Of a DNA stretch of 64,000 nucleotides, positions 20,085 to 40,079 are shown one piece after another (positions within the stretch are counted from its first letter, which is position 1; each line of letters opens with the position of its first letter). Source of the DNA: Profundicola chukchiensis (GTDB lineage: Bacteria > Bacteroidota > Bacteroidia > Flavobacteriales > Weeksellaceae); the NCBI RefSeq assembly GCF_029664245.1, contig NZ_JANAIE010000001.1:186001-250000 (forward strand), given 5' to 3'. The position numbers and the translations under genes were made by a program. The notes beneath the pieces were generated by a model, which was given only the letters and a program-made list of their open reading frames with translations, was not told where the DNA came from and made no database searches.

Positions 20085-22037
<1,953 letters not shown>

Positions 22038-22065
22038 TCAAAAACTTCATTATTTTGTAACTTAA

Positions 22066-22073
22066 CAAAGGTA
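22066..22073 (-). promoter_or_regulatory. -7 element of gyrB
   Basis: TACCTTTG on the minus strand, a perfect TAnnTTTG match 32 nt upstream of the gyrB ATG. No clear TTG at the usual -33 distance. Confidence 0.55.
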
Positions 22074-22172
22074 CGAAAATCTTAGCGTTTTACCGCATTT
22101 TGAATAGCCTTAAAGCCGTTAGTTTTCAACAAATTGTTATATTCTAATCATTAAAAATTTAAATTGAACCTT

Positions 22173-22961
22173 ATGAAATATTTTAAAATTTATCTGTTGT
22201 TTTGGCTCGTATTTCCCGTTTTGTCTAATTCACAAGTATTGAATATAGAAAAAGAAAGACTTGACCAGGATACGCTAAGTGATTTTAAAATTAAATTGGT
22301 AACAGATCTTGAATTATACAATCGAAGTGGAGGAGAAAATGACCGCAATAAAGGCATGGATTTCAGCTTTGATGTAAGCGCTATCTACGAACCTGGCAAA
22401 CATGCATATATCTTTATTGCAGAACTGGATTATGAACGCTCTAATGGCATCGGACTGTTAGATTTTGGTTATGCACATGGACGTGTGAATTGGCTGGCTG
22501 AGAATAAATTGAGCTATGAAACTTTTGCGCAAATCTCTTATGATAATTCTCGTGGCTTGGACAGAAGAACCGTATTTGGTGCTAATTTGAGATATCAATT
22601 AGTAAATGATAAGCATTTTAGTGTTTACCTTGGTTCGGGTTTAATGCAAGAATCAGAGAATTGGCAACATCCGTATAATGATGAAATTATAAGTTCAAAT
22701 ATTTTAAAATCTACAAATTATTTGAATGCTCAATATAATATAAATGAAATGTTGAATCTCAATAATGTTGTTTATTACCAAGCCGGATTAGATGATAAAC
22801 TTTGGCGTAATCGAATTCAGAATTGGTTGATTTTAAACACCAAAATAACAAAAACATTATCCCTGAAAAACTCTTTTGTTCTTGCTTATGAAGATAAACC
22901 AATTGTTCCTATCACTAAATTTATTTATACCCTTAAAACAGGATTTGCGATTAATTTATAG
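22173..22961 (+). CDS. DUF481-like outer-membrane protein
   Basis: The ATG at 22173 gives 262 residues with signal peptide MKYFKIYLLFWLVFPVLSNSQ; an in-frame TTG lies 9 nt earlier. The mature part is a chain of beta strands (ELYNRSGGENDRNKGMDF, NKLSYETFAQISYDNSRGL, FGANLRYQLV, HFSVYLGSGLMQE) resembling DUF481/YdiY small barrels. Function unknown. It is divergent from gyrB. Confidence 0.65.
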   Translation: MKYFKIYLLFWLVFPVLSNSQVLNIEKERLDQDTLSDFKIKLVTDLELYNRSGGENDRNKGMDFSFDVSAIYEPGKHAYIFIAELDYERSNGIGLLDFGYAHGRVNWLAENKLSYETFAQISYDNSRGLDRRTVFGANLRYQLVNDKHFSVYLGSGLMQESENWQHPYNDEIISSNILKSTNYLNAQYNINEMLNLNNVVYYQAGLDDKLWRNRIQNWLILNTKITKTLSLKNSFVLAYEDKPIVPITKFIYTLKTGFAINL

Positions 22962-23034
22962 AGGGTTATCAAATTTTGAATGTTGAATTTTGAATGATTT
23001 TTTGGTTTTAAATGAGAACGGCAAGTGCAGAAAT

Positions 23035-23067
23035 GTCATTGCGATGATTGGAGTGTAACGAAATGAC
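23035..23067. repeat. Short palindromic intergenic repeat, copy 1
   Basis: GTCATT (23035-23040) pairs with AATGAC (23062-23067) around GCGATGATTGGAGTGTAACG. It is a degenerate version of the copy at 23191-23225, followed by GAAGCAATCTGA. Confidence 0.7.
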
Positions 23068-23190
23068 GAAGCAATCTGACTGAGTGCGAAGCTATTGCCC
23101 TTCGGGTTACACAGATCGCCACGCAAATTTTCTGAAGTAAAATTGGCTCGCGATGAGGTTGGCTTCGCATTTCACAGATTACTGAAGAAA

Positions 23191-23225
23191 CGTCATTGCG
23201 ATGAATGGAGTGCAACGCAATGACG
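23191..23225. repeat. Short palindromic intergenic repeat, copy 2
   Basis: A perfect 10-bp stem, CGTCATTGCG (23191-23200) with CGCAATGACG (23216-23225). The loop ATGAATGGAGTGCAA is shared with copy 1. Between the copies lies GC-richer, non-coding sequence (GCGAAGCTATTGCCCTTCGG). Confidence 0.75.
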
Positions 23226-23264
23226 TTGGGTGTTTACAGTCTTTTAAAAGTTAAATTATACCAT

Positions 23265-24240
23265 TTATTGGTACTGAAAAATCTTTCTGAACTGATAAAA
23301 GAATCTTTCTATTAAACGCAGGTTTTCGGTTACGATTTCTGCTGTTCCTCGCATTTCTTTGTTGAATTCTATTTCTTCATTATGAGAAGTTTTCAAGTCG
23401 TGTGGAAGGCTAATTTCTACAAAATAATTACCTTCTGCATTGGGTGATAATGAGATGTTTTTAACACTACCTTCTATCACGCCAAATTGCTGATAGGGAT
23501 AACTATCTAATTTAATAATGACTTTTTGTTCTGGTTTTATCTTTCCGGAATTTTGAGCGGGAACCACCAGCCGACCTAATAAATCTTCCTTTTTTGGTAA
23601 AATCGTGAAAATAACTTCGCCAGGTTTAATGAATTGATTTTCTCCCCAGAAATTTTGAAAACTCACGGTTCCGTTAATCGATGAACGCAACAAATAGGTT
23701 TGATCCCATTGTGTCAAAGACTTTTTTAATTGATCATAAGCTTGTAATAAACTCTTGATTTGCTCTGTTTCCGTTTGTTGTTTGCTGATACTTGTGCCCG
23801 ATAAGGTTCTATTTACCGTGCTTCTGCTTTCTTGTAATTGAGAAATAGATAAATCTATATTTTGCAGGTTTTGTTGTGCTTGTAGATAGTCCAATCTTTT
23901 GCTCTCATCTCGGTAGCGGAAATTACGCCTTGGTCATATAAGGACTGATTTCTGTCAAAATCTTTCTTTTAAAGCTTGACTTTGGCTACTTCTATGCTTT
24001 TTTGTTTTTGAATGGAATTAAGTCTTGCATTTATTTCGTTGATAGATTGCTTTCCTGCTAAGGTTTCTGGTGCAAAAGGCTGTAATCTTCTGTTTAAAGT
24101 ATAATCTGTATAAGCTCTTTCAAAATTGATGTAATCACTTTCCACATCACCAAAAGAATGGGTTTCGAACAAACGAAACGGAAAACTGAAATTCAAATTC
24201 ATTTTTGTCGATAGAGATTCCTCTTTTATCCAAATATTTG
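23265..24240 (-). pseudogene. Decayed HlyD-family export adaptor
   Basis: Pieces of one membrane-fusion protein lie in order. The upstream piece (24202 to 23969) has LAGKQSINEINARLNSIQKQ and ends at a TAA. The same frame then continues as KKDFDRNQSLYDQGVISATE to about 23895. There a one-base loss shifts the frame into LDYLQAQQNLQNIDLSISQL. This last part has the coiled coil, an IKPGEVIFTILP lipoyl/barrel block and a C-terminus typical of HlyD adaptors. The N-terminal membrane anchor and first lipoyl half are missing. Intact homologues partner peptidase-containing ABC exporters of small peptides; none is present here. At least two lesions plus truncation make it non-functional. Confidence 0.82.
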
Positions 24241-24307
24241 AATAAATATTTCATTTATATTTCTTAGAATTTATAATATTAACTATATTTCAAATAGACT
24301 TCGGAAT

Positions 24308-25039
24308 TCATTCGGTAGTATCCACACCTGCCTCAAACATTTCTTTTGCCTTTTTGCGACGTTCAATTTCCATTTTTTTATAGGTTTCAATTTCTAAAAT
24401 CTCATGGTCTTTAAATACATTAAAATCAATACATTTCTCTAATATTTCAATATTTTTGATTTTGTATTCCATACTATATCCGTCATTTAAAGTGAATTTA
24501 TAATACAAAATCAATCCTGGCAATCCGCCAACCTTCCATGGTCCGGTACTGTAGTTTAAATCGGTTGTAAATAAAGCTTCAATTTCTCCATATTCAAGAT
24601 TTCTTGTTGCTTTTCGAACTTCGTAGCCAAAATAAGATTTCTTTTCTCTTGCTATATTCCAGTCTTTGTTAGAAACGCTGTCCTCAACGACTTGATTCTT
24701 TTTCACCTCGTACTGAATTGTGTTTTTAGATAAATTTCTTAGATAGGTGGAGTTATCTGGACTGTCAAAAGAGTACCATTGTCCGTCAATGGTAATTATG
24801 CCTTCTTCTTGAACATGTGGAATACGTTTCCATAGTGATTGATTCCCGTGAATAAAAAGTTCAAAATCATACGTTCTATCATTGTACATACTTGCTGCAA
24901 GCTTAAAATTAGCATCTGTTGATAGATTCTCTGGAACAGGATTGAAATTACGCTGTTCATATACAACACGTAGGGTTTCTTGTGATAAAAGAACAAATGG
25001 AGATAAAATAATGGCAAGAATTAAAAAATATTTCTTCAT
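24308..25039 (-). CDS. GLPGLI-family protein
   Basis: A 243-residue exported protein with signal MKKYFLILAIILSPFVLLSQ and the family-defining block STGPWKVGGLPGLILYYK near residues 160-180. The GLPGLI family (TIGR01200) is restricted to Bacteroidota and often lies beside genes for small secreted Cys-containing peptides and their exporters; the biochemical role is not established. Here it follows an unknown secreted protein and the Cys-rich peptide gene at 26194-26373 and precedes the broken HlyD adaptor. That placement supports membership of the peptide locus. Confidence 0.9.
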   Translation of the reverse strand: MKKYFLILAIILSPFVLLSQETLRVVYEQRNFNPVPENLSTDANFKLAASMYNDRTYDFELFIHGNQSLWKRIPHVQEEGIITIDGQWYSFDSPDNSTYLRNLSKNTIQYEVKKNQVVEDSVSNKDWNIAREKKSYFGYEVRKATRNLEYGEIEALFTTDLNYSTGPWKVGGLPGLILYYKFTLNDGYSMEYKIKNIEILEKCIDFNVFKDHEILEIETYKKMEIERRKKAKEMFEAGVDTTE

Positions 25040-25122
25040 TGGAAAACTTTGATTGTTTAACTAAAGTCGATGCTATTTAAAGGTAGTACGGCATAATTTT
25101 ATTTAAGCTTTTAAAGATGTGT

Positions 25123-26094
25123 TCATTTTTTATTTGCACTTTCTAACTCTGAAAAAATCTTACGAAGCTTGGGTAATCCTGGATGCTGTGGGTGTAGTTT
25201 CTGGAAATTTTCCCAAATAAATTTAGTATAATCGTAATCATACTTTTTGTCGTCATGGTACGAAATCATTTGCTCATATGCGATCATTGGTTGCAAATAA
25301 ATTGGCACAAAATTAAATACATTGTCTCTTTCTGGCCATAGCCCAACATCATACCTTCCACCTTCCATTATATTATTAGAAATTAGCAATGCTTTGCGTC
25401 TAATTTGAATCAACCTGATGGATCCTGGAACATTATTGTACTTCTTATCAAATGGATCGTAAGTTTGAAATAAGTACTTTAGAAATTGAGATTGATTTTT
25501 ATTAGCTTTCTTTATTTCTATATTCCACAGCATTGAACTTACCCAACTAATTTCCAGTATTTTGACAAGTTCCCGGTGATAAACCGAATCTATTTTTTTT
25601 GCCTTTAAAAGTTGGTTAAGAGGTTTTCTTATTTGTTTATCCAATTCATATTCAAAAAAATAAATCATTTTATCAGAAGATGTATATTGCAAAAGAGTTT
25701 TACCTAAATCAAAAGGTTTCTGAAAATAATATTCGTTAGATAAATAGCGAATACCATGTTTATTCGAAATTGATCCTTTCACATCCAAATCCTCTTCTCC
25801 TTCAATCTTTAAAGCAATGTTAGGTTCAAGAATAAAGGCTAAAACTTTAGGCCCAAAATTTAATGAGAATATTAAACTTGAATCCAATTTAAATTTCACA
25901 TTAGCCTTTCCATTCTCGAATTTTAAATCTATCTTTTTATAAAATGGAATTGAGTCATTATAGTAAGAGATGTATTCACAACGAAGAGATTTACCATATT
26001 TGTTTTCATCCCTATTGAAAAAATAAACGGCACTCTCGCTTATTTGTGAGAAACCAAAATTGCTCAATAAAAACAATAATAAAATATATTTCAT
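25123..26094 (-). CDS. Secreted protein of unknown family in the peptide locus
   Basis: A 323-residue protein with signal peptide MKYILLLFLLSNFGFSQ. The N-terminal 120 residues are beta-rich (LKFENGKANVKFKLDSSLIFS, ILEPNIALKIEG), like the DUF4369/DUF5106-type domain that precedes thioredoxin domains in Bacteroidota. The rest is helical and contains no CxxC thioredoxin site. I do not recognise the family. It lies 99 bp after the Cys-rich peptide gene and 83 bp before the GLPGLI gene, all on one strand. Confidence 0.7.
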   Translation of the reverse strand: MKYILLLFLLSNFGFSQISESAVYFFNRDENKYGKSLRCEYISYYNDSIPFYKKIDLKFENGKANVKFKLDSSLIFSLNFGPKVLAFILEPNIALKIEGEEDLDVKGSISNKHGIRYLSNEYYFQKPFDLGKTLLQYTSSDKMIYFFEYELDKQIRKPLNQLLKAKKIDSVYHRELVKILEISWVSSMLWNIEIKKANKNQSQFLKYLFQTYDPFDKKYNNVPGSIRLIQIRRKALLISNNIMEGGRYDVGLWPERDNVFNFVPIYLQPMIAYEQMISYHDDKKYDYDYTKFIWENFQKLHPQHPGLPKLRKIFSELESANKK

Positions 26095-26193
26095 TATCTC
26101 TTGTAATTTTTATGTATAACTATAAATCTAAAAAAATAGTATAGCTGAGGACTTTAAATCATAAGCCTCTTTACTAACAATCACTTTAAAAAT

Positions 26194-26373
26194 TTAATTA
26201 CTGCTTTTACAAAACTCCTTCGGTCGTGTATGAGAACAAGCTTCACAACATCCATCATTACAATCTTGTGGAGAATCAGCACTAATAGTTACCCCACATC
26301 CACAATGGCAATTGCTTCCGCTTCCATAGATAGAAGACATTTGATTTCTTGATAAAGTTTTAAATTTTTTCAT
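26194..26373 (-). CDS. Cys-rich secreted peptide precursor with GG-type leader
   Basis: A 59-residue ORF. Residues 1-18 (MKKFKTLSRNQMSSIYGS) resemble the Bacteroidota double-glycine leader of bacteriocin or RiPP-like precursors: a basic start, a LSR-N-x-M/L-x-x-I/V core and a small-residue cleavage site, here GSGS. The core has eight Cys (22, 24, 26, 38, 42, 43, 46, 55), as NCHCGCG and DCNDGCCEAC, with Ser and Thr residues that could be modified. No modification enzyme is seen in the window. The context (XRE regulator, GLPGLI protein, HlyD remnant) fits a peptide exported by an ABC transporter. Metal-binding or disulfide-rich peptide is the alternative. Confidence 0.75.
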   Translation of the reverse strand: MKKFKTLSRNQMSSIYGSGSNCHCGCGVTISADSPQDCNDGCCEACSHTRPKEFCKSSN

Positions 26374-26451
26374 AAATATAAATTTTTATTTGTTAATAAT
26401 ACCGAAATCTGAAAACAAAATTTCTAATAACCAAATAAATGTAAATATATA

Positions 26452-26499
26452 TTACGTCATTTTAGACTTAAAATAAACTTACGTAATGTAAACTTAAAA
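26452..26499. promoter_or_regulatory. Two direct operator-like repeats between peptide and XRE genes
   Basis: TTACGTCATTTTAGACTTAAAA (26452-26473, split here as TTACGTCATTTTAG and ACTTAAAA) is followed by TTACGTAATGTAAACTTAAAA with 27 bp between starts; copy 2 is 26479-26499. The repeats share TTACGT.AT.TA.ACTTAAAA. They lie in the divergent intergenic space, 18 bp before the XRE start and about 78 bp before the peptide start, where a small HTH regulator would be expected to bind. Confidence 0.55.
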
Positions 26500-26516
26500 G
26501 ATTGAAATTTGTTTCT

Positions 26517-26765
26517 ATGGAAATGATTCCAGAAAATACCATTGAACTCCTTAAACAAAAAACTCCTGTACAGGTGGGCAATAGACTAAAGTCCTTGCGT
26601 AAATCTAAAGGAATTAGTCAAACTTTTATTGCGCATAAAACAGGAAAAGACAGACAATATATTTATAAAATAGAAACGGGGAAGGTGAATCCGACTATTT
26701 CCACCATTGCGCTTATTACCCTTGCACTCAATGTTAGCTTAGAAGATATTTTCAAATCTTTGTGA
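26517..26765 (+). CDS. Small XRE-family transcriptional regulator
   Basis: From the ATG at 26517 the protein has 82 residues and is almost entirely one Cro/C1-type helix-turn-helix: VGNRLKSLRKSKGISQTFIA, HKTGKDRQYIYKIETGKVNP, TISTIALITLALNVSLEDIF. An in-frame TTG at 26502 is less likely. Such single-domain regulators often control an adjacent divergent operon; here that is the Cys-rich peptide locus, with repeated sequence blocks in the gap. Confidence 0.85.
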   Translation: MEMIPENTIELLKQKTPVQVGNRLKSLRKSKGISQTFIAHKTGKDRQYIYKIETGKVNPTISTIALITLALNVSLEDIFKSL

Positions 26766-27019
26766 TTTTGTTTTAAACAAAACATAAGATTTAGCTTTCT
26801 AACTTTTCTCTCTTTCAGAATTATTTGAAGGTATTGAATTATAATTTTATATAGAAATTTCATTTTTGTTCAATGAACAGTCTGCGAACATCATCCACCA
26901 GAATACAGGAGATAATGCACAAGCCAAAAATTAAACCATCTATAATGCAGATAAGGAGCATATACATACTGTCCATTCATATATAGGGTTGATACGATAT
27001 TCACTTTTCATTCTTCACT

Positions 27020-34833: not shown

Positions 34834-35547
34834 TTAGGCTACACTCTTGTTAGCAGTTAGGAGTTTTGCCATAGCTCTTTCTAGGCTAGTTTCTTCGGTT
34901 TTCTCGTTCAAACCTTCTAAGGTTCCTTTGTAGTAGATGGTTCCTTCGAGTAAGAAAATAATTTCATCAGCCATTTCCTCTACAAAAGAGATAATATGGG
35001 AAGTTATCAAAATCAACTTTCCTTTTGCTTTGGTTTCACGAATAAGATTTTTTAGGTGTAACATCGCCACTGGATCTAGACCACTCGTAGGTTCATCTAA
35101 AATCACAATCGGTGAGTCGAACATAAAAGTTAAAACTAAATTCACTTTCTGTTTGGTTCCACCCGAAAGGTTGTTTAATTTCTTTTTAAGGAAAGGTTGC
35201 AAGCCAAACAATTCAATGAGAGGAGTTTCATCGGCATCATTTCCACGAATATCCTTAATCATTTTTATTAATTCGTGCACCTTTAGATTCCCTGGGAAGT
35301 TGGCAATTTGTGGTAAATAGTCGATATCATTTCGGTAGGAGGCATTTTTCTCAATATCAATTCCATTGACCGAAATACTTCCTTTATCCTTGATTACCAT
35401 TCCTAAAATGGTTTTGATAATCGTAGTTTTACCCGAACCATTAGGTCCCAAAACTGCATAAATCTTTCCTTGTTCTACGGAAATATTAACGCCTTTCAGC
35501 ACTTCTTGTTTGCCGAATTTTTTATGTAAATCTTTAATTTCTATCAT
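34834..35547 (-). CDS. nosF: NosF, ABC ATPase for NosZ maturation
   Basis: A 237-residue ATPase: Walker A GPNGSGKTTIIK (about 34-45), signature LSGGTKQKVNL, Walker B IVILDEPTSGLDP and switch His in ITSHIISF. It powers NosDFY. Its start overlaps the nosD stop by 4 bp (ATGA), implying coupled translation. Confidence 0.93.
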   Translation of the reverse strand: MIEIKDLHKKFGKQEVLKGVNISVEQGKIYAVLGPNGSGKTTIIKTILGMVIKDKGSISVNGIDIEKNASYRNDIDYLPQIANFPGNLKVHELIKMIKDIRGNDADETPLIELFGLQPFLKKKLNNLSGGTKQKVNLVLTFMFDSPIVILDEPTSGLDPVAMLHLKNLIRETKAKGKLILITSHIISFVEEMADEIIFLLEGTIYYKGTLEGLNEKTEETSLERAMAKLLTANKSVA

Positions 35548-36773
35548 GGGTATGGTTGCATTTTTGGTTTAGCATCTACCAAGTCATCTGGTGTAAATAC
35601 AGGAGAAACCTTTTCAGAGAAATTGATGATGTCTACAAACAAACTTCTTAATAAAATAATGGCCTCAGGAGCTTTTTCCACAATGTAGGCAAAGAGCTTA
35701 ACAGGACGATATGGAATATCACCAAAACCATCTTTATCTAGATCATAGCCTGTGTATTCGCTCCAATAGTTTTCATTAAATAAATTATCATTCAAGTTAC
35801 TATTATAGGACATGTCGAATGAATTATTAGAGAAATTATTTCCTTTAAAGTTGTTGGTATAAGCAGCTCCGTGGAATTTGAGCGCCCAACCATTGCCATT
35901 AAATTTATTTCCGAAATAATTGATTCTTGTAGAACCCTCCACCTGAACTCCGATGGTATTTTCCTCAAAAATATTATCTAAAATTTCGGCGTCATATATT
36001 TCTTTTAAAAGAAGTCCATATGCAGAAGTTCCCCAATTTTTCTTGAAGATATTCTTTTCCATGTGGATCCTTTTAGAGAACATCACTGCCACGCCGGTTC
36101 CGTTTTCTTTAAAAGTATTACCAAAGTATTTGTCATCATTAGAAAACATAAAGTGAAGACCGTAACGCAAATTGTTATGACTCACATTATCACGAATGAT
36201 ACAATTATCTGCGAATTCAAAATAAATTCCATCGCGAGCGCCAGAAATATCGTTTCCAATGATTTCAACATAATGTGAATACCATAAATGAATTCCATTT
36301 CCAGAATTATACTCATCTTTTGCAATTCCTCGAATATTGTTATTAATCACTTTTCCGTTGGAGGATTTAGCTAAATAAATTCCAAAGAACATATCGCGCA
36401 GGGTAAGATTTTCGAGTCTAAAGTGCTGTGAGTTTGAAACTCTAATGGCCGCCCAATCATTGGTGTAGCTTAATCCTACATTCTGAACTGTTAGGTTTTT
36501 TAAAGTAACATGATCTGATTTAATATGAAAAATCTGACCTTTTTTCATTCCATCTACAATCACTCCATCTTCCCCGATAATGGAAAGCGGTCGAGTAATT
36601 TCGATGTCAATTTCGTTATAAGTTCCTTTAGCGACCTTGATTATATCATTATCCTCGGCCATAGCAATGGCAGATTTAATGCTTTTGTACTTTTCGTTTG
36701 CGCCCACCTTAATGGTTTTTGCAAAGCCTAAAGTCAAACCAAATAACAAGAAAATGAGACTTAGATTTTTCAT
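35544..36773 (-). CDS. nosD: NosD, periplasmic copper-site assembly protein
   Basis: A 409-residue exported protein with signal MKNLSLIFLLFGLTLGFAKT and a right-handed parallel beta-helix made of many short repeats (residues 90-330: LENLTLRDMFFGIYLAKSS, IEIIGNDISGARDGIYFEFA). This is the NosD/CASH fold that docks on NosFY and delivers copper/sulfur to apo-NosZ. It follows nosL by 61 bp. Confidence 0.93.
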   Translation of the reverse strand: MKNLSLIFLLFGLTLGFAKTIKVGANEKYKSIKSAIAMAEDNDIIKVAKGTYNEIDIEITRPLSIIGEDGVIVDGMKKGQIFHIKSDHVTLKNLTVQNVGLSYTNDWAAIRVSNSQHFRLENLTLRDMFFGIYLAKSSNGKVINNNIRGIAKDEYNSGNGIHLWYSHYVEIIGNDISGARDGIYFEFADNCIIRDNVSHNNLRYGLHFMFSNDDKYFGNTFKENGTGVAVMFSKRIHMEKNIFKKNWGTSAYGLLLKEIYDAEILDNIFEENTIGVQVEGSTRINYFGNKFNGNGWALKFHGAAYTNNFKGNNFSNNSFDMSYNSNLNDNLFNENYWSEYTGYDLDKDGFGDIPYRPVKLFAYIVEKAPEAIILLRSLFVDIINFSEKVSPVFTPDDLVDAKPKMQPYP

Positions 36774-36834
36774 TCAATTATGCTTATCCAATGTTTTATT
36801 TAACCAAGATTTTTCTTAATTAATTTAAAGCAGC

Positions 36835-37281
36835 TTAATGATGAGACATTTCGTGCTTGGTTTGCACACTTTTTATTCCTTCGAAATCATAAACTTCTCC
36901 ACCATTTTCAGCTTGAGAAGCATCAGCTAATTCTTTGGTTGAATATGCCGTAATATTTGCCCCCATAGGACTAGGCATATTTTCACTCACCAAAAAATAA
37001 GAAGATTTGGCATCTACCAAAACGCCAGGATTATCCATGGTACAAGTCAAAATATGTGAATAAGCCTTGTCTTGGTTTTCGTGCATATAATTAATCATAC
37101 ATTCACTAGAATCGAATTTGTGCACCTTTCCTTTATCCGTAACCAATTCGGTACCGTAGGGTTTATCCATGATATTCATGGAACAAAAATCGCATTTATC
37201 TGAACCAAAATTGATTTCTTTAGGCCCTGAACTACAAGCCATAATGCTTAGCAAGAATAGACCAAATATAAATTTATACAT
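36835..37281 (-). CDS. nosL: NosL copper chaperone lipoprotein
   Basis: A 148-residue lipoprotein with lipobox MACSS and a NosL domain opening with the CDFCSMNIMD motif. NosL binds Cu(I) and hands it to the NosZ assembly machinery. The product ends with a His/Met segment (KHEMSHH) that could add a metal site. It is 18 bp after the 4-TM gene. Confidence 0.93.
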   Translation of the reverse strand: MYKFIFGLFLLSIMACSSGPKEINFGSDKCDFCSMNIMDKPYGTELVTDKGKVHKFDSSECMINYMHENQDKAYSHILTCTMDNPGVLVDAKSSYFLVSENMPSPMGANITAYSTKELADASQAENGGEVYDFEGIKSVQTKHEMSHH

Positions 37282-37299
37282 GAGTGATTTTTTTTTTAA

Positions 37300-37896
37300 T
37301 TAATAATTATTTTGAGCAAGTTCTTTCTTCCCTAAGAAATAAGCAACTAAAGACAAGGCAATTCCAGCACCCATAATGAATGCTCCAATTCCTGGATAAG
37401 AGTGTGCGATAAAGTTTAATATTTGTTTACTACCGTAAAATGGAGGTTGAAAGCCCATTGGGTTTCCATCTTCATCTGTAAATTTCATGATGGCATTAGG
37501 GTCTAAATCGTTTCCATAGTTACGCTCCCAGATATAGAAATCAATCATACCTGCTGTGGCTAAAAGAACCATAAGAATAAACCATCCTAAAAACCATTTA
37601 TAGTTTTTGAAAGCTCCAATCAAAACACCTGCTAATGACATAATTCCGATAACAATCGGGAAAATAACAAACTCAGGAATCGTCTCTGGGATGAATTTCA
37701 TTCCAACATAGTGGTTCATGAGATTGATGTTTTTAATATCATCTGGGTTGTAATCTTGGAATTTATAAATAAAAATATCCATACTTAATGGTCTCGGATA
37801 CTGTGGCGCTTCGAGTGTAATACTCCATAACGGAAACACAAACAAAGCCAACAGTAATAGCGCAGAGACAATCATTAATATTCTTGATAGTTTCAT
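37300..37896 (-). CDS. Conserved 4-TM protein of the nos cluster
   Basis: A 198-residue protein with four predicted helices (about 5-27, 78-97, 102-122, 165-190) and two periplasmic loops rich in Pro/Tyr. The NINLMNHYVGMKF segment in loop 1 looks like a metal or heme ligand patch (His, Met). Membrane proteins of this outline occur in Bacteroidota nos clusters as I recall, with no settled role. It may carry electrons or copper for NosZ. Confidence 0.7.
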   Translation of the reverse strand: MKLSRILMIVSALLLLALFVFPLWSITLEAPQYPRPLSMDIFIYKFQDYNPDDIKNINLMNHYVGMKFIPETIPEFVIFPIVIGIMSLAGVLIGAFKNYKWFLGWFILMVLLATAGMIDFYIWERNYGNDLDPNAIMKFTDEDGNPMGFQPPFYGSKQILNFIAHSYPGIGAFIMGAGIALSLVAYFLGKKELAQNNY

Positions 37897-37954
37897 GGGG
37901 TTTGTTTTTTAATGTTATTGTAATGAGTCTTTATGGTTTACAATACATTTCTTA

Positions 37955-37999
37955 AAAGAAAAAGGGCAGAAAACTTGTATTACGTCTCCTGCCCCAAAA
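37955..37999 (-). terminator. Internal terminator-like hairpin after nosZ
   Basis: GGGCAG (37964-37969) pairs with CTGCCC (37989-37994). On the minus strand it is followed by TTTTTCTTTT. It lies in the 161-bp gap between nosZ and the 4-TM gene and could reduce read-through so that NosZ is made in excess of its assembly factors. Confidence 0.6.
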
Positions 38000-38057
38000 A
38001 TTGAAAAAAGTATATTTTATCTCTTTTTTAGCAAGAATTACTCACTTAAAATTAGAT

Positions 38058-40079
38058 TTATTCTGACTCTGCTTGAGCGTCTTCGGCTTTCTTCTGAGAT
38101 GCTGCTGCCTCACCTAAACTCCAGTGTAGTGGCGTATTAGATCCAGCTGCAGATACCCTTACATATCCTGCCATCTCTTGGTGTAGTGCCGAACAGAAAT
38201 CTGAACAATAGAATGGCCAAACTCCAACTTGTTTTGGTTCCCACAGTAAGGTTTCTGTTTGCCCTGGCATAATCAACAACTCAGCATTATTAGCTCCAAT
38301 CATTGCAAATCCATGTGGCACATCGAAGTCTTGTTCTAGGTTGGTGATGTGGAAATAAACCTTGTCACCTACTTTGATTCCTTCGATATTATCTGGCGAG
38401 AAGTGAGATCGAATCATCGACATATAAACATGTACTTCGTTTCCATTTCTCTCTACTCTACCTTCACCATCAGATTTAATACTATGTGGGTGCTTGTTAT
38501 CCTCTAATTTGAAATACTTAACAGATTTATCCATTAACATTTCTGCTGGCAATGCACCTGCATAGTGAGGTTCACCAATAGTTGGGAAGTCTAATAATAA
38601 CTCCATTTTATCACCTGTAATATCAAATAGCTGAGCCGAATGCGCTAACTCTGGACCTGTTGGTAAATATCTATCTTTAGTAATCTTGTTCATAGCTAGT
38701 AAGTATTTACCATAAGGTTTTCTTGTATTACCACCTGGAATCATTAAGTGACCTGGAGAATAATAAGTTGGTTTTCTATCTAACACTTCCCAAGTTCCTA
38801 ATTTCCATTTTACAACTTCAGATGAGATAAAGAAGGTTGTATAAGCATTTCCTTTACCATCAAATTCTGTATGCAATGGTCCTAATCCTGGTTGTTTAAC
38901 AGTACCTGCCAAAACATCTTCGAATTTCAAGATTGGAATACCATAAGCATCACCATCAAATTTCTTGTTTTCGATAGCATCAATCATCTTAGTGAATGAG
39001 TGAACTGTTAAGTCAGCTGATAATTTACCATTTCCGATAATGTATTCACCTGTTGGGTCAACGTCACAACCATGTGGAGATTTTGGAGTAGGAATAAAGT
39101 AAACCAAACCTGGCACATCTGCTGGGTCGATTACTCTTACTTCTTTTTTCCATTCAGTGGTTGCCATGTGCGTTTCCTCGTCATATTTGTTATGTGCATA
39201 ATGCGCTGGAACCGTTTTGAATTTTCCATCTTTAATCGCTTGTTCTGCTACTTTCCAGTTAACAGCAGCAATAAAGTCCTTGTCGTTTTGAGATGCGTTC
39301 ACCTCTTGTAGTGTGTGTGCTTCCTCTGTATTATAAGTTGTAAAGAAGAACCAACCATGTGATTTATCTCTACCTGGGTGAGCTAGGTCATAATTGAAAC
39401 CTGGCATTAAGATTTGGAATGCAATATCCATTTCACCCGATTCTTGATCTACTGATAAGAAAGACATACTTGCCTTAAAGTTACCTTTAGCCTCGTTGAT
39501 TGGCATATCTTTTTGAGGCGTTGGAACCGCAAACCTTGTATTTGCTACAACATACTCTGTGTTCTCTGTAATGAAAGATGAAGAGTGGTTACCTGCACTA
39601 TGTGGAAGCTCAATTACCTCTACAGTTTCGAAGGTTTTAAGGTCGATTCTCGCAATACGTGGTGTATTGTTACCGTTCATAAATACCCATCTACCATCAA
39701 TCTCTCCATTGGTTTGAGATAAATCTGGGTGGTGTGTATCATCCCATGGAATCATACCATAAGATGTCATTAATAATGGCTTGGTTTCCTCATTATATCC
39801 ATATCCTTTTTCTGGATCTTGAGATAAAACTGGAATTACCTTAAGCAATCTACCAGATGGCAAACCATAAACTGCCAATTGCCCACTGAATCCTCCTGAT
39901 AAGAAGGCATAGAACTCATCGTACTCTCCTGGAGCAACATAAACTCTCTCTGCAGCGTTACTAGCTATAGCTCCAGAGCCTTGACCTGTTTTCGCGTCTC
40001 TACTTTTGTTACAACTGACCGTAATGGAGGTTGCAAACACAAGTAGGAATAACTTAAATAAAATGGAATTATTTCTCAT
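38058..40079 (-). CDS. nosZ: Nitrous oxide reductase, clade II (Sec-exported)
   Basis: A 673-residue periplasmic enzyme reducing N2O to N2. The N-terminus is a Sec lipoprotein signal (VSCNKS), not a twin-arginine signal, as expected for clade II. Seven CuZ histidines can be placed: DDTHH (116, 117), NHSSS (165), SPHGCD (336), PLHTEF (403), SPGHLM (444) and EPHYAG (505). CuA ligands are H589 (DVPHGF) and C625, C629, H633 and M636 in WPFYCSDFCSALHQEM. Everything needed for activity is present. It is preceded by a cytochrome c gene in the same operon. Confidence 0.97.
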   Translation of the reverse strand: MRNNSILFKLFLLVFATSITVSCNKSRDAKTGQGSGAIASNAAERVYVAPGEYDEFYAFLSGGFSGQLAVYGLPSGRLLKVIPVLSQDPEKGYGYNEETKPLLMTSYGMIPWDDTHHPDLSQTNGEIDGRWVFMNGNNTPRIARIDLKTFETVEVIELPHSAGNHSSSFITENTEYVVANTRFAVPTPQKDMPINEAKGNFKASMSFLSVDQESGEMDIAFQILMPGFNYDLAHPGRDKSHGWFFFTTYNTEEAHTLQEVNASQNDKDFIAAVNWKVAEQAIKDGKFKTVPAHYAHNKYDEETHMATTEWKKEVRVIDPADVPGLVYFIPTPKSPHGCDVDPTGEYIIGNGKLSADLTVHSFTKMIDAIENKKFDGDAYGIPILKFEDVLAGTVKQPGLGPLHTEFDGKGNAYTTFFISSEVVKWKLGTWEVLDRKPTYYSPGHLMIPGGNTRKPYGKYLLAMNKITKDRYLPTGPELAHSAQLFDITGDKMELLLDFPTIGEPHYAGALPAEMLMDKSVKYFKLEDNKHPHSIKSDGEGRVERNGNEVHVYMSMIRSHFSPDNIEGIKVGDKVYFHITNLEQDFDVPHGFAMIGANNAELLIMPGQTETLLWEPKQVGVWPFYCSDFCSALHQEMAGYVRVSAAGSNTPLHWSLGEAAASQKKAEDAQAESE

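Follow-up and report, generated by a model that had tools for sequence, protein, structure and literature searches.

A cysteine-rich, double-glycine-type peptide encoded beside a GLPGLI gene in Profundicola chukchiensis, probably stranded by loss of its exporter

Introduction

Is the Cys-rich peptide encoded by a 59-codon open reading frame (ORF) of Profundicola chukchiensis an exported, bacteriocin-like product, and does the genome still possess the means to export it? The ORF lies in a stretch of 64,000 nucleotides (hereafter the window; G000:C21:186001-250000) from a genome assembly (2.62 Mb, 108 contigs) with a completeness of 99.96%. An initial annotation, made from the letters of the window, had described it as a Cys-rich precursor that is cut by an ABC exporter. 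The bacteroidetocins, class IIf bacteriocins (Coyne et al. 2019, PMC6671954), offer a known system for comparison. There they are defined by a leader that comprises 15-16 aa and has GG at its end, and by a core of ~42-48 aa in which two or more Cys occur. Their regions contain an ABC transporter/peptidase close by and, in most cases, a thiol oxidoreductase, and the ABC transporter with its double-glycine peptidase is believed to cleave the peptide and carry it out of the cell. Their target is reported to be BamA (PMC8546649).

Results

The ORF encodes a leader and a core with eight Cys

The ORF proved to be real. It begins with ATG on the minus strand, which the initial annotation had left unnamed, and is open over all 59 codons (Table 1). 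The accompanying remark that common gene callers would miss so short an ORF is doubtful: their usual minimum is 90 nt and the ORF measures 180 nt. Residues 1-15 align to the NCBIfam leader model NF047798 (leader_Chryseo, "bacteriocin-like protein") with an E-value of 8.7e-4 and 19.4 bits (20.4 bits in the genome search). These scores are below the cut-off of the model (23.5 bits), and the leader ends in GS. At E <= 1 no Pfam family matched the peptide, and at the same threshold a second match to the peptide was not detected in the genome. The alignment score of the leader with each of four relatives was reached in 0 of 5000 shuffles. The predicted core carries eight Cys (core positions 4, 6, 8, 20, 24, 25, 28 and 37). 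The two clusters to which all eight had been assigned hold seven of them, three in NCHCGCG and four in DCNDGCCEAC, whereas the last is located near the C-terminus (FCKSSN).

Table 1. Features of the peptide locus, in window coordinates
Feature	Position	Strand	Basis or remark
Cys-rich peptide precursor, 59 aa, intact ORF	26194..26373	-	homologue in a sister species (E 2.7e-5; 45% identity across residues 1-49)
Leader MKKFKTLSRNQMSSIYGS, 18 residues, double-glycine type, Gly-Ser at predicted cut	26320..26373	-	NF047798 and shuffles
Predicted mature core GSNCHCGCGVTISADSPQDCNDGCCEACSHTRPKEFCKSSN, 41 residues, 8 Cys	26197..26319	-	cut site predicted from relatives with GG
323-aa protein, signal-peptide-like start (by eye)	25123..26094	-	39% over 279 residues to 488-aa protein of the sister
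GLPGLI family protein (TIGR01200), signal-peptide-like start (by eye)	24308..25039	-	94.9 bits, cut-off 50
HlyD-family exporter adaptor remnant	23265..24202	-	residues 120-428 of sister HlyD left; one in-frame stop, one frame break
HTH_3 regulator gene, divergent from peptide	26502..26765	+	HTH_3, E 2.1e-15
Island, gyrB to DUF58 gene, 4985 bp	22035..27019		comparison with two sister species
DUF481 protein within island	22164-22961		

Among 320 genomes of the family, the closest relative of the peptide was found in a sister species of the same genus (G307). It carries GG where the window peptide has GS, and its core likewise contains eight Cys. The gene order is peptide, 488-aa protein and GLPGLI protein, the latter being 45% identical to its counterpart in the window. 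At E <= 0.1 the peptide matched 39 of the 320 genomes, its own included, most of them weakly. A third species of the genus (G306) gave no match in either the peptide search or a search with the five-row profile described below. When GTDB genome contigs were searched with two short patterns, a single locus was returned, that of the sister species (JAUNUH010000005.1). Viral contigs gave no match, and neither the 323-aa protein nor the peptide matched any plasmid.

Leader-type peptides are common in the family, and the closest ones precede a GLPGLI gene

A profile was built from five peptides (those of the window, G307, G086, G118 and G031) and searched against the 320 genomes at E <= 0.01. It matched 174 genomes, the five seeds by construction and many others mainly via the leader. 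Against NF047798, two of the relatives pass the cut-off (G118, 29.9 bits; G031, 25.9 bits), and two fall below it (G086, 21.7 bits; G307, 13.1 bits). Since the sister homologue has GG at the site and is followed by homologues of the next two genes, leader-type matches occur in 174 of 320 genomes and NCBI models a similar leader as "bacteriocin-like", the proposed reading of the ORF as an exported precursor of the double-glycine type is supported, here with Gly-Ser at the putative site.

The 13 best profile matches comprised the window, the sister species, ten genomes of the largest genus in the set (G031, G086, G038, G118, G053, G036, G113, G119, G102 and G057), presumably Chryseobacterium judging by the name of the leader model, and one further genome (G280). 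In all of them but the last a three-gene cassette was present, consisting of the peptide gene, a gene for a middle protein of ~290-320 aa (488 aa in the sister; in G057, 210 aa if counted from the first ATG) and a GLPGLI gene; the window has its GLPGLI gene two genes downstream of the peptide, as in the cassette of the largest genus. In G280 the GLPGLI gene directly follows the peptide gene and precedes a gene for a protein with VKOR and thioredoxin domains. Hence, a GLPGLI gene lies just downstream in 13 of 13 cases, identified by TIGR01200 in the window, the sister species and ten others, and by Pfam Porph_ging in G086. A crude motif check within ~3.7 kb of ten other leader-peptide loci (L035, L037, L039-L045, L129) found GLPGLI in none; these loci were picked from match lists, not randomly, and the check missed the true GLPGLI protein of G119. 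Three loci with no leader peptide at the match (L033, L038, L128) were left out. GLPGLI genes abound (21 matches in the P. chukchiensis genome), so what matters here is the neighbourhood and not the GLPGLI family itself. For the cassette peptides of five genes from the largest genus, dN was below dS in 10 of 10 pairs.

GLPGLI proteins paired with a bacteriocin were not found in the literature searched, and the combination with a Cys-rich double-glycine peptide looks undescribed in those papers. The idea of a small, mostly undescribed family does not fit the leader, which is of a common kind already modelled by NCBI. We know of no function for the GLPGLI family, of which the third gene of the window locus is a clear member.

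Further arrangements were observed at other leader-peptide loci. In G156 (L129, 3773-9649) several tandem leader peptides flank the ORF of a type-I ABC exporter (511 aa from the first ATG) and precede an hlyD gene. In G148 (L045, 10268-11776) a VKOR and thioredoxin protein, a possible partner for oxidative folding, is encoded near a leader peptide. A different bacteriocin-like locus in G306 (L085, 7451-7884) consists of a C39 exporter preceded by two glycine-rich peptides, whose leaders are of the GG/GA type.

Kinship of the cores across genera is suggested

Pairwise scores of the window core were reached by few of 5000 shuffles (G086, 0.06%; G031, 0.1%; G118, 1.6%; G307, 1.8%), and by somewhat more with the Cys residues held fixed (0.12%, 0.7%, 4.6% and 4.7%, respectively); as these relatives had been preselected as matches, the figures flatter. 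A core-only profile of the ten peptides from the largest genus, built from neither the window nor the sister core, gave the window core -1.1 bits, a score exceeded by 20 of 61 other cores and reached by 13 of 1000 shuffles. The sister core scored -11.9 bits (reached by 874 of 1000 shuffles) and that of G280 14.4 bits (0 of 1000). This profile thus failed to lift the window core above background and rejected the sister core. The expectation of homologues with a conserved leader and Cys spacing was borne out for the leader; the spacing agrees only loosely with that of the sister, and the core-only profile is not significant across genera. Leader kinship and the GLPGLI neighbour hold across genera, while homology of the window core to cores of other genera is no more than suggested. 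Comparison of the middle proteins of the two genera by hhalign (E 0.034, probability 1.5%) does not establish kinship.

The adjacent exporter gene is broken and no C39 domain was detected

The initial annotation had the leader cut by the C39-type peptidase domain of an ABC exporter. For this genome that expectation found no support: a search for the C39 domain (PF03412) gave no match at E <= 0.001 in an assembly whose 108 contigs leave gaps, and the adjacent hlyD gene is broken. PF03412 matches 225 of the 320 family genomes. It is present in 171 of 174 genomes with leader-type matches versus 54 of 146 without (Fisher p 2e-37, relatedness not corrected), and within the largest genus in 160 of 161 versus 9 of 12 (p 0.001, again not corrected for relatedness), the leader and C39 listings having been crossed by eye. 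The three genomes with leader-type matches and no C39 match are P. chukchiensis, G083 and G276.

The intact HlyD of the sister species comprises 428 aa (C13:129-1415). In the window its residues 1-119 are gone, and the remainder is split between two frames, with residues 120-218 (69% identity, internal stop) in one and 216-428 (83%) in the other. This supports the conclusion that the locus once held part of a type-I exporter. The sister hlyD gene begins at a contig start, so the ABC gene may lie in the neighbouring gap; no overlap linking this contig to that of the sister cassette was found. Both C39 matches of the sister are truncated starts, located after copies of the SPASM gene of a grasp-with-spasm system, hence a complete exporter was not seen in this species either. 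The contig concerned (G307:C6:1-8601; loci L031 and L082) contains three SPASM-gene matches, two near full length and one a C-terminal piece, and two of the three precede the truncated transporter starts.

The cassette lies in an island

The gap between the DUF58 gene and gyrB measures 175 bp in the sister species, 280 bp in G306 and 4985 bp in the window; the sister cassette lies ~51 kb away from its DUF58 gene. Identity between sister and window is 39-45% for the cassette genes, 69-83% for HlyD, 74% for DUF58 and 88% for gyrB, and the lower values of the cassette suggest exchange or fast change of these genes. The genes downstream of the peptide, previously regarded as unexplained, could be accounted for in part, as a secreted TlpA-like fragment, a GLPGLI protein and an HlyD remnant. 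The first of these, the 323-aa protein, aligns to residues 49-327 of its sister homologue. At its C-terminus the latter carries a thioredoxin-like domain that contains WCGIC. The window protein, which finishes directly ahead of it, lacks this domain. Within the family, only these two of 320 genomes match the 323-aa protein at E <= 0.001. An order-wide search with the middle-protein alignment matched at least 94 of 395 genomes, P. chukchiensis included, at E <= 1e-5, and among the matches listed those from beyond the genus begin no earlier than column 292, covering mainly the thioredoxin part. An AlphaFold model of the middle protein, based on a two-row alignment, reached a mean pLDDT of 54.8; structure comparison of this model returned no chain at Z >= 8, the best (6.8) and others being mostly helical arrangements.

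In a comparison with a library of defence systems, the HTH gene alone had matches, to HTH-type models. The HTH_3 protein is a possible regulator of the peptide gene. In the 227 nt upstream of the peptide, a promoter expression of the TAnnTTTG type had no match, and the looser pattern TA(2-3)TTT had five. In the spacer that separates the peptide gene from the divergent HTH gene, TTACGTAA and ATTACGTCA (26451-26486) were noticed by eye as possible operator sites.

Discussion

We interpret the locus as a stranded, decaying locus for a bacteroidetocin-like, that is bacteriocin-like, peptide, and give this reading a probability of roughly 0.6. It resembles what remains of a system preserved more fully in the sister species. 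The precursor would be a secreted, probably disulfide-bonded peptide of the double-glycine kind, on a plan like that of the bacteroidetocins. Were the locus working, the leader would direct it to an ABC transporter bearing a C39 peptidase domain; this transporter would cut after GG or GS and export the core together with HlyD. A thioredoxin-like partner may then aid disulfide formation, a role supported by the thioredoxin-like domain of the sister middle protein and by the VKOR and thioredoxin protein encoded after the GLPGLI gene of G280. The GLPGLI protein, the middle protein or both could serve the producer in folding, immunity or a surface role, and the oxidised peptide, once released, may act on related bacteria by killing or signalling, by analogy with the bacteroidetocins. 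All steps after translation we infer, and the export step appears lost in P. chukchiensis. Because the exporter seems lost there, a stranded peptide in a decaying locus is the most likely state. Points that weigh against this reading are the weak core-only profile scores, the uncertain kinship of the middle proteins, the truncated C39 matches of the sister species and the missing contig link between its cassette and hlyD.

Compared with the bacteroidetocins (PMC6671954), the window peptide resembles them in a short leader with a GG-type site, a predicted core of ~42 residues with Cys and a producer from the Bacteroidota; a thiol-oxidoreductase function is also encoded near the peptides of relatives (the sister species and G280). 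It differs in a leader of 18 aa ending in GS, where the sister has GG, instead of one of 15-16 aa ending in GG. Cut after GS, as predicted, the core would be 41 aa long, one residue under the described range. It has eight Cys where bacteroidetocins A and B have four, a comparison by description and not by sequence. For the window we found no ABC transporter/peptidase and no thiol oxidoreductase, and GLPGLI and another protein take the place of the transmembrane protein described.

Alternatively, the peptide may still be made and exported by another route, through an ABC exporter encoded elsewhere with an unrecognised protease or through one that falls in an assembly gap, in which case the locus would be working. 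The division of the genome into 108 contigs speaks for such a gap and so against stranding, and G083 and G276 likewise have leader-type matches and no C39 match; the open ORFs of the peptide, middle protein and GLPGLI protein fit continued use as well as recent decay. We nevertheless hold a working locus to be rather unlikely, considering the C39 search in a genome of such completeness, the broken hlyD gene next to the cassette and the missing thioredoxin domain. About as tentative is the view that the peptide is no toxin at all, and instead a signalling or structural secreted peptide with the GLPGLI and middle proteins as partners, a view that overlaps the other readings. It would suit the single leader peptides of the largest genus, which lie beside housekeeping-like genes and have no obvious immunity gene. 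It sits less well with the divergence of the cassette, which exceeds that of HlyD, DUF58 and gyrB, as fast divergence is frequent in weapon and immunity genes. That the ORF arose by chance is barely credible: 59 codons alone are unremarkable and the leader scores below the cut-off of its model, but gene order and leader homology, including the leader shuffles, largely rule this candidate out.

The initial annotation also considered a RiPP-like precursor. The peptide could, now or formerly, have residues modified by grasp-with-spasm ATP-grasp/SPASM enzymes like those encoded near its relatives. Two such enzymes are encoded downstream of the sister cassette: a SPASM_w_grasp maturase that scores 262 bits with TIGR04193 (cut-off 175), and a GRASP_w_spasm relative whose 162 bits with TIGR04192 fall below the cut-off of 230. 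The G280 locus (L127, 7727-12553) has, ~3.7 kb downstream of its peptide, a gene for a GRASP_w_spasm protein above the cut-off (272.7 bits). Conserved Cys are, moreover, typical of other precursors of this branch, according to a published survey (PMC8939145). However, the systems of the sister and G280 each have their own GG-leader ORF just upstream, that of the sister close to TIGR04149 (24.2 bits, cut-off 25) and that of G280 with no NCBIfam match. No modifying enzyme was seen beside the window peptide, TIGR04193 has no match in P. chukchiensis or G306, and none of these enzymes was recognised by eye in the cassettes of the largest genus. The RiPP proposal thus found no backing at this locus, and we regard it as improbable.

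The peptide is one more of a known kind and probably idle in P. chukchiensis, where the cassette seems to have outlasted its exporter, a natural example of such a loss. The repeated pairing of a Cys-rich double-glycine peptide with GLPGLI (13 of 13 best matches) gives a large family of the Bacteroidota a testable role. A more speculative extension, which we consider unlikely, is that the Weeksellaceae possess a separate class of disulfide-rich secreted peptides on a portable cassette, with GLPGLI as the partner dedicated to them in immunity, folding or a surface role; the window strain would then have kept the cassette after exporter loss, perhaps for immunity alone.

Other features of the window

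A 43-nt repeat with hairpin-like ends occurs twice (23026-23068 and 23183-23225), its copies 88% alike and at a distance of 157 bp, in the stretch that separates the HlyD remnant from the ORF at 22164-22961; a pattern search gave no further copy in the window. Outside the island, the window encodes nitrous-oxide reductase functions at 35544-40079, namely a Sec-type NosZ (929.7 bits), NosD and NosL.
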